From Candidatus Borreliella tachyglossi (GTDB taxonomy: Bacteria > Spirochaetota > Spirochaetia > Borreliales > Borreliaceae): a DNA stretch of 64,000 nt. Positions 25,471 through 33,041 of this stretch are shown here, piece by piece; position 1 is the first letter of the stretch; every line of letters starts with the position of its first letter. Below the pieces are notes generated by a model. That model did not search any database. It worked only from the letters and a program-made list of their open reading frames with translations, and was not told where the DNA came from. The DNA lies in assembly GCF_003076595.1 (NCBI RefSeq), contig NZ_CP025785.1:190454-254453 (forward strand), read 5' to 3'. Position numbers and translations under genes: made by a program.

Positions 25471-25515
25471 TAGCAATATTTACTCTAAAGTAATAAAATG
25501 TTAATAATAAAAGAT

Positions 25516-26394
25516 ATGAAAACAAATTTATTACTGTTTAAAAATTTAATAATCTTTACCTTATTTTTAGTTCTATTATTTAATTCAAATTTAATATATT
25601 CTCAAAGATTAATAAGAATTGGTCAAGAAGAGATAAAAATCAAAAACTATTCAAAGGCAATAAAAACCCTCAGTGAGGCTATTCAGAAATATCCAAAGGT
25701 ACAAAACGGATATTACTTTTTAGCAATAGCTTATAGAGAAAATAACCAATTAACAGAATCAGAAGGTGCTCTGCTTGATGGAATTGCAATAGGAGGCGAT
25801 ATTGATTATAAGTTATATTTTGAACTTGGAAATATAATGTTTAAACGAGGTGAGGGGTATTATAATCTAGCAATCAAATATTATTCCAATTCAATTAAAA
25901 ATATGCCCAATTACGACAAATCACTACTTAACAGAGCAAATTCTTACGTTGAACAGGGTAAAGTGAATTTTAAGGAAAAAGATTACAAGAGTGCTTGGGA
26001 TTCATATACTATGGCAATCCATGATTATTCACAATTTATTACACTAAGATACGAGACTGATAAAAAAGATGATATTCTATATATGATTGATCTTTTACGA
26101 AATAAAAAGGCAGACCTTGAAGAGCTTGACAAAAGTCTTAAGACAAGAAGTAATCACATTCCTATAGAACAGAAAGGCAATGAAAAAACAAAAGATAACA
26201 AAGAGAAGAAAGACGATGAGGAGCATAAAGATCATCAAGATGAGAATAAAAACAACGAAGATCAAAAGGATAATAAAGAGCATGAAGATAAAAAAACAAT
26301 GCTTAAAGAAGGGTTTGAAGATAATTTAAAAACAGATTCTTTAATTGAGCTAGAAAAAATTAATTGGCAAGAGGAGTTGAACATAGATGAATAA
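25516..26394 (+). CDS. Exported TPR protein with highly charged tail, 292 aa
   Basis: A signal peptide (MKTNLLLFKNLIIFTLFLVLLFNSNLIYS) precedes about four TPR-type units (residues 35-190). The tail of about 90 residues is made almost only of Lys, Asp, Glu, His, Asn and Gln in irregular repeats (such as KDNKEKKDDEEHKDHQDE). An ATG six codons earlier, at 25498, is also open but puts an Asp in the signal peptide's basic end, so I prefer 25516; neither has a strong ribosome-binding site. The protein should act outside the cytoplasm. Its 3' end overlaps the Lmp1-like gene by eight bases, and both carry TPRs, so they may work together. Confidence 0.8.
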   Translation: MKTNLLLFKNLIIFTLFLVLLFNSNLIYSQRLIRIGQEEIKIKNYSKAIKTLSEAIQKYPKVQNGYYFLAIAYRENNQLTESEGALLDGIAIGGDIDYKLYFELGNIMFKRGEGYYNLAIKYYSNSIKNMPNYDKSLLNRANSYVEQGKVNFKEKDYKSAWDSYTMAIHDYSQFITLRYETDKKDDILYMIDLLRNKKADLEELDKSLKTRSNHIPIEQKGNEKTKDNKEKKDDEEHKDHQDENKNNEDQKDNKEHEDKKTMLKEGFEDNLKTDSLIELEKINWQEELNIDE

Positions 26395-31754: not shown

Positions 31755-31828
31755 GGGCCCATAGCTCAGTTGGTTAGAGCACCCGACTCATAATCGGTAG
31801 GTCCCAGGTTCAAGTCCTGGTGGGCCCA
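31755..31828 (+). tRNA. tRNA with CAT anticodon (tRNA-Ile2 or elongator tRNA-Met)
   Basis: The acceptor stem GGGCCCA pairs perfectly with TGGGCCC, with A as discriminator. The D arm is GCTC-AGTTGGTTA-GAGC, the anticodon loop is CTCATAA and the T arm is CCAGG-TTCAAGT-CCTGG. It is not an initiator, because the first acceptor pair is a normal G-C and the stem lacks the three G-C pairs of fMet. C4-G69, C5-G68, C6-G67 and G30-C40 match determinants read by the lysidine synthase TilS, which favours tRNA-Ile decoding AUA. Elongator Met remains possible. Confidence 0.9.
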
Positions 31829-31830
31829 AA

Positions 31831-32466
31831 TTAATTTAATTTAAAGAACAGGTTGGAATTCTTTCCTATGTAATAAACTCCTATGTAAGTATCTAGGGTG
31901 TCTTCTAGTTGAACATCTAGCATGTCTTCAAGCTTCACTACCGAATCTGAAAAATTAATTTCATCTTTAGGAGTCTTAAGCAAATACACTTTATTACCAC
32001 TAATCTCATTTAGCTTAATCATACCTCTAGAACCATACACACATTCATGAATCAAAGCCAATTCTTCCTTTGATAGATTCAAATTCATAACAATCTCTTT
32101 ATTATATATTCTCATTCCAGAATCAAAAAGATGCACGTGTGCTACAAAATTTTCAAAAGTCTTATCAGCAATATTAAACATTAAATCCTTGCAATAAAGA
32201 ATATCCTTGCCAAGAACAGAATCAATGAACGAAGATGTATATTTACCCTTAGCAACTTCAATAAATTCTTTACTATCTATGTTTTCAATAGCCAATTTAA
32301 TTATATCTTTAGAATGCGTTACTCTAATAGCAAAATCAAAAGTCATAAAATAATCAAAACTATCCTTATAGAAGTAATAGTTAATAACATAATCAAGTTC
32401 CTTTATCTCAGGATAATTTATCTCACAAGAACACAGAACAATAAAGAATAATAATAAGTACTTCAG
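31831..32466 (-). CDS. Putative lipoprotein, 211 aa, probably starting at CTG inside the efp stop
   Basis: The first ATG in this frame, at 32346, gives a 171-residue protein with no export signal. The frame is open for 40 more codons, and they encode a short lipoprotein signal peptide, KYLLLFFIVLCSC, then EINYPEIKELD. An in-frame TAA lies three codons before this region, so the only start giving the full signal is CTG at 32466, which forms a CTGA overlap with the efp stop like the ATGA, GTGA and TTGA overlaps seen elsewhere in this window. The rest has no recognised domain. A sequencing error or another start such as ATT cannot be ruled out. The gene ends just beside the tRNA on the other strand. 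Confidence 0.65.
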   Translation of the reverse strand: MKYLLLFFIVLCSCEINYPEIKELDYVINYYFYKDSFDYFMTFDFAIRVTHSKDIIKLAIENIDSKEFIEVAKGKYTSSFIDSVLGKDILYCKDLMFNIADKTFENFVAHVHLFDSGMRIYNKEIVMNLNLSKEELALIHECVYGSRGMIKLNEISGNKVYLLKTPKDEINFSDSVVKLEDMLDVQLEDTLDTYIGVYYIGKNSNLFFKLN

Positions 32467-33041
32467 TCTTTAACTCTTTCGGCATATTCTTTTGTTTCAG
32501 AATTAATCAATATTTTATCTCCAACATTAATAAAAAGAGGTGCCTTTACTACAAAACCTGTATGAAGAGTAACATTTTTCATAGCATTAGTTACAGTATC
32601 TCCTTTTACAGCAACTTCAGCATCTACAACTTTAAATGCAATTTTTGGAGGTAATTTAATATCAATAACTTCATCACCCCACTTAATCAGAGGATAAACT
32701 TCTGCTTCTTGCACAAAGGGAATCTTATCCTCAAGATTTGAAATTTCCCTCAGGTTAACATTGAATTGCTCATAAGTTTCTAAATCCATAAAAATAAGAT
32801 TATCACCCTCCCTATAGAGATATTGAGAGCTTACTTCTAAAACCTCAATTTCTTCTGCGGTATCCGCACCTTTCAAAGTTTCCTTAATAACAGACCTATT
32901 CTTAAGATTTTTAAGCTTCAATCTTACAATTGAACCCCCTCTGCCTGTTTTCGAAAATTCTCGTTCAAGAACAATATGTGGTATGCCTTTAAAAAGCAAA
33001 AAATGACCTTTTTCAATGTCTCCAGACTTAATTGTACCCAT
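32463..33041 (-). CDS. efp: Translation elongation factor P
   Basis: EF-P rescues ribosomes stalled at polyproline stretches. The 192-residue protein has the KOW-like N domain (GDIEKGHFLLFKGIPHIVLERE) and the two OB domains (the second starting near residue 130, LPPKIAFKVVDAEVAVKGDTVTNAMKNVTLHTG). The loop that reaches the peptidyl-transferase centre reads KTGRGGS, with arginine at residue 34 where the enteric protein has the beta-lysylated lysine. The ATG is at 33041. The stop overlaps the probable CTG start of the lipoprotein gene, and pstS diverges from the other side. Confidence 0.96.
   Translation of the reverse strand: MGTIKSGDIEKGHFLLFKGIPHIVLEREFSKTGRGGSIVRLKLKNLKNRSVIKETLKGADTAEEIEVLEVSSQYLYREGDNLIFMDLETYEQFNVNLREISNLEDKIPFVQEAEVYPLIKWGDEVIDIKLPPKIAFKVVDAEVAVKGDTVTNAMKNVTLHTGFVVKAPLFINVGDKILINSETKEYAERVKD

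Follow-up and report, generated by a model that had tools for sequence, protein, structure and literature searches.

A putative lipoprotein gene of Candidatus Borreliella tachyglossi that probably starts at a CTG codon overlapping the efp stop

The window, which is the whole 64,000-nucleotide stretch of Candidatus Borreliella tachyglossi DNA analyzed here, carries efp and, immediately downstream on the same strand, a gene for a putative lipoprotein. The features of this locus are as follows.

31755-31828, strand opposite to the lipoprotein gene: tRNA-Met, downstream of the lipoprotein gene.
31831..32466, minus strand: lipoprotein gene, an orthologue of BB0213, open for 211 codons plus TAA when read from CTG, with orthologues in the same place in 36 of 36 Borreliaceae genomes.
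32344..32346, minus strand: ATG at codon 41, the first standard start in frame, not accepted as the start of the gene (fold cut, weak Shine-Dalgarno [SD] pairing of -1.3).
32425..32427, minus strand: lipobox Cys, residue 14, invariant in 14 aligned orthologues.
32428..32466, minus strand: predicted signal peptide, (L/M)KYLLLFFIVLCS, 13 residues, aligning with the signal peptides of orthologues, which end in ...CSC or ...FSC.
32463..33041, minus strand: efp, elongation factor P, 192 aa (TIGR00038, 194.8 bits against a cutoff of 185.8).
32464..32466, minus strand: proposed CTG start, overlapping the efp stop as CTGA, the sole near-cognate codon upstream of the hydrophobic core.
32470..32472, minus strand: in-frame TAA in the sequence, closing the lipoprotein frame upstream.
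32474..32480, minus strand: GAAAGAG, a Shine-Dalgarno-like motif with a 7-nt spacer to the CTG (-4.2 kcal/mol against the 16S tail).
32483..32485, minus strand: ancestral ATG start within efp, out of frame here, in frame in every examined relative.

On the minus strand, efp ends in ...GTT AAA GAC TGA, and the lipoprotein frame crosses this junction as TAA AGA CTG AAG TAC TTA TTA TTA TTC TTT ATT GTT CTG TGT TCT TGT. Between the in-frame TAA and codon 41, the lipoprotein frame was directly observed to hold no ATG, GTG, or TTG; the first of these, ATG 32346, lies 40 codons after CTG 32466. The CTG is the sole ATG, GTG, TTG, or CTG between the TAA and the hydrophobic core of KYLLLFFIVLCSC, and is the only plausible start for the whole signal, in line with the initial annotation. 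The same annotation had the CTG overlap the efp TGA by three bases. In fact, two bases are common to both codons, and the overlap between the genes is 4 nt (CTGA). Across 800 kb of the chromosome, stop/start couplings comprise 32 ATGA, 13 TTGA, 9 GTGA, and 4 CTGA. Within the window, the expected couplings of ATG and GTG starts to upstream stops were found elsewhere (two ATGA, one GTGA), but the TTGA coupling that had also been claimed was looked for there and not seen.

Translated from the CTG, the gene displays the features of a lipoprotein signal: a charged n-region (M-K), the core YLLLFFIVL, and the lipobox LCSC. With the Cys at residue 14, the signal peptide has the 13 residues originally attributed to it. 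Lipobox-type signals of this genome span 13-30 residues; this one has the minimum length, and signals of 13-14 residues do occur there. The product is a putative lipoprotein that would be lipidated at Cys14. Its sequence matched no Pfam or NCBIfam family and no PDB sequence, and its predicted structure had no fold match below E 0.001. In the predicted fold (mean pLDDT 74.5), strand 1 (mature residues 7-19) lies wholly within the codons hidden by a start at codon 41. Translation from ATG 32346 would also cut into the fold, because this codon lies inside predicted strand 2.

Conservation of the hidden codons was assessed in related genomes. The lipoprotein gene is found downstream of efp, on the same strand, in 36 of 36 Borreliaceae genomes, with 52-75% identity between the window protein and those of the 35 others and homology over the whole mature protein. 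Between relatives and the window, the section from Cys14 to Met41 has a mean identity of 75%, against 61% for the rest of the lipoprotein, and its comparison with the nearest relative gives a dN of 0.05 and a dS of 0.67. Because the gene is present in all 36 genomes and Cys14-Met41 is under purifying selection, the 40 upstream codons are, on this comparative evidence, real coding sequence. The initial annotation was therefore right that a conserved lipoprotein signal peptide is missed when the first ATG is taken; the 40 codons, which might have proved unconserved or broken by stops, are conserved across relatives.

The initiation signals were compared by their SD energies against the 16S tail found in this genome, for which 593 gene starts have a median of -4.5 kcal/mol and random positions a value of -0.8 kcal/mol. 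CTG starts are generally weak. The observed pairing at CTG 32466 (-4.2 kcal/mol, 7-nt spacer) is near the gene-start median, and the rival starts have weaker values (-0.9 at the upstream ATG 32485, -1.3 at ATG 32346). The purine-rich motif before the CTG also occurs in relatives. Because it is encoded by efp in these genomes too, it would have been available before the frame change described below.

In all examined relatives, the efp 3' end contains an ATG in phase with the lipoprotein frame (e.g., AAT ATG CTG AAA GAG TTA AAG ACT AAA ATA...), located 19 nt, or seven codons, upstream of the CTG position. The codon aligned with the window's CTG is AAA, AAC, AAT, or similar. The initial annotation anticipated an ATG, TTG, or GTG at this codon in orthologues, which did not hold: a start codon at the position of CTG 32466 was sought in the orthologues and found in no other genome. 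The distance from the lipoprotein frame to the efp stop is identical modulo 3 in all examined genomes except the window, where a net +1 nt (modulo 3) is directly observed from the efp stop to the lipobox. ATG 32485 is retained in the window but is out of frame because of this net +1 nt, and it opens a 20-codon frame ending at 32423. Its presence proves little, since it is generated by the efp Tyr-Ala codons; the relatives have no other usable start. In addition, efp stops at TGA in the window and at TAA in most relatives. Given the frame change and the TGA stop, the CTG reading is therefore specific to this genome. A CTG can arise here without selection, as the codon before the TGA stop is GAC and TGA ends 18% of long genes in this genome. 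So either the CTG is a lineage-specific replacement, or else the indel reflects a fault of the assembly or a new lesion.

Of the rivals to a CTG start, the strongest is an assembly or sequencing error, by which the true genome would have ATG 32485 in frame and the CTG would be the artefact of a one-base miscall. This idea draws on the in-frame ATG of every relative and on a shift unique to one assembly; moreover, the ATG frame in the window still reads MPKELKTEV..., near the relatives' MLKELKTK(I/V). To gauge the accuracy of the genome, 800 kb of the chromosome were compared with the nearest relative over about 700 gene pairs. Six genes had pieces in different frames: three of these hits come from spurious extensions at the upstream end, and the remaining three genes each carry several lesions; among the other genes of this comparison, an isolated single-base frame break was not found. 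Because of this result, the assembly looks accurate. The stretch from the efp stop to the lipobox, furthermore, has no homopolymer longer than 3, and the assembly was built from Illumina reads only (PMC10481545), in which isolated indels are rare outside homopolymers. The ATG frame is also unique in encoding Pro at codon 2, a position that is Leu or Gln in relatives. We consider such an error unlikely, though it deserves more weight than the explanations that follow.

Several further observations were made on this genome. It contains smc, which is absent from five related genomes; under the clade markers of PMC10481545, this is indicative of Candidatus B. tachyglossi. Of two plasmid DNA queries against PLSDB, one had no match and the other only matches at 60-80% identity. 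parA is disrupted by an internal stop codon and a break in frame, and parB looks degenerate (G000:C1:463368-464897). Several lesions mark a DNA methylase gene and a second gene as pseudogenes (G000:C1:56780-58211 and 566085-567444). Lastly, a gene at 25498-26394 of the window aligns to the nearest relative over its first part only, with 298 aa here versus 442 aa in G016 and a differing 3' part.

A second alternative is a real and recent loss of function, in which the frame break silenced secretion of the lipoprotein while the open reading frame has yet to decay. The family's start codon is indeed gone, and other genes of this genome, such as parA, parB, and a methylase, have decayed. Nevertheless, the 211 codons hold no further lesion, keep about 75% identity to the nearest relative, and have a low dN/dS, and a usable CTG with a normal SD is at hand, which makes this loss rather improbable. 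Less credible still, and in our view very improbable, is a start at the old ATG 32485 followed by a +1 ribosomal slip before 32425 into the lipoprotein frame. In its favour, the window still has this ATG, and neither frame contains a stop between about 32470 and 32425; against this, inspection by eye revealed no recognised slippery element with a stimulator, the SD at this ATG is weak, and the codon is kept by efp in any case. Finally, a start at ATG 32346, the first standard one in frame and the one that a gene caller would annotate for a 171-aa cytoplasmic protein, is rejected with hardly any doubt by conservation and the predicted fold, as it would lose 40 codons whose part from Cys14 is the more conserved section, together with strand 1, and has a weak SD.

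Other genes with non-standard starts were sought by scanning 695 gene pairs of this genome and its nearest relative for protein sequence conserved ahead of the first standard start codon. Besides the window gene, the scan returned rnmV, nanE, lepA, and a gene for a DUF192 lipoprotein. The two that carry CTG lie outside the window.

G000:C1:677475-678002 (L234), minus strand: rnmV, with the next standard start 41 codons downstream in this genome.
G000:C1:722093-722533 (L206), plus strand: DUF192 lipoprotein gene, overlapping the upstream stop as CTGA in G016.

For rnmV (ribonuclease M5; TIGR00334, 161.6 bits), codon 1 is CTG in 17 of 17 Borrelia, 15 of which have an in-frame stop one codon upstream, and the same codon is TTG in 13 of 13 examined Borreliella. 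The DUF192 lipoprotein (PF02643) starts with CTG in 13, TTG in 4, and ATG in 1 of 18 Borrelia; in four reptile-clade genomes, including this one, there is no standard start upstream of the CTG or in the first seven codons. ATG or TTG at the same codon of orthologues is thus found for these two genes, unlike for the window gene. CTG makes up 3.1% of Leu codons in this genome. As a control, 52 other Leu-conserved columns of four genes had a mean of 2.5% CTG and a maximum of 22%, and no column was all NTG. Non-NTG starts persist as well, with lepA starting at ATT in 30 of 30 Borreliaceae examined (G000:C1:about 87353, minus strand) and nanE at ATT or ATC in 27 of 30 (G000:C1:702822, plus strand), each with a strong SD. 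The SD energies are -5.9 for the rnmV CTG, -8.5 for the DUF192 CTG, -11.6 for the lepA ATT, and -11.4 for the nanE ATT (kcal/mol). Judged by codon conservation, CTG serves as a conserved start in at least two further genes of the genus, rnmV and the DUF192 lipoprotein gene, and it appears to be fixed in the genus for at least rnmV. An AUU start of B. burgdorferi lepA was proposed in 2007 (PMC1780047), and we found no report of CUG starts in Borrelia in the open-access literature. Two further loci were observed: at G000:C1:368742-369482, KHINKIRNS precedes the first standard start and is conserved between G000 and G016, perhaps marking a further non-standard start, and near G016:C1 449355, a large gene (1475 aligned residues) has a signal-peptide region without a standard start, where G000 has ATG.

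Taken together, we regard a CTG start coupled to efp termination as the best reading of the window gene, and as a reasonably probable one. A small indel (net +1 nt) in the stretch coding for the signal peptide would have put the family ATG 32485 out of frame. Ribosomes finishing efp may then reinitiate at the overlapping CTG 32466, or 30S subunits may bind at the GAAAGAG site. Initiation at the CTG would give M-KYLLLFFIVLCS-C..., a 13-residue lipoprotein signal with lipidation at Cys14, and would thereby preserve the open reading frame. Counting against this reading, a start at the CTG position occurs in no other genome, the indel is seen in a single assembly, and the CTG is explicable without selection. 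However, because CTG is conserved as the start of at least two further genes in the genus, translation from the CTG of the window gene is probably real and not just a quirk of the gene model. A broader proposal, to which we give about an even chance, is that CUG (and AUU) are ordinary, evolutionarily fixed starts for Borrelia ribosomes at several chromosomal genes, a tolerance that would let the window gene survive by moving its start to a stop-derived CUG, giving a snapshot of start-codon replacement.

These starts matter for annotation. Gene callers restricted to ATG, GTG, and TTG cut the window protein to a cytoplasmic fragment and hide the lipoprotein; in Borrelia, this restriction also shortens rnmV (by 41 codons in this genome) and the DUF192 lipoprotein. 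That rnmV has CTG in 17 of 17 species and TTG at the corresponding codon of the sister genus argues strongly, on comparative grounds, for fixed CUG initiation in bacteria. Genes of the rnmV type would be clean test cases for how spirochaetes set initiation fidelity, and the window gene would be a case of start-site replacement following a frame change.

Among known systems, the window gene resembles B. burgdorferi BB0213, a putative lipoprotein, in its efp neighbour, protein family, and lipobox region. It differs in that the examined Borreliella start at an in-frame ATG inside efp, whereas the window carries this ATG out of frame. Studies of B. burgdorferi describe co-transcription of bb0213 with efp and a 3' end inside the bb0213 ORF whose level rises with spermidine (PMC10319736); the gene was also among those recovered when expression was screened in vivo (PMC3757035), and its induction is seen in mouse skin (PMC4510351). 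Similar to the window gene, genes with AUU starts, namely, infC and a second gene of E. coli and lepA of B. burgdorferi (cited in PMC1780047), can be read solely from a codon other than ATG, GTG, or TTG. However, their codon is AUU rather than CUG, and the lepA ATT is conserved across species, whereas the window CTG is lineage specific. Bacterial initiation at CUG is also known from Salmonella, where CUG-initiated N-terminal proteoforms were found by Ribo-RET (PMC11005335); these are alternative proteoforms of genes with standard starts, in contrast to the window gene, for which the CUG would be the only start. Finally, rnmV and the DUF192 lipoprotein gene share a CTG start with the window gene in the same genome, and the DUF192 product is likewise a lipoprotein, with a CTGA overlap in G016. 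Their CTG is conserved across species and interchangeable with TTG or ATG, unlike that of the window gene.
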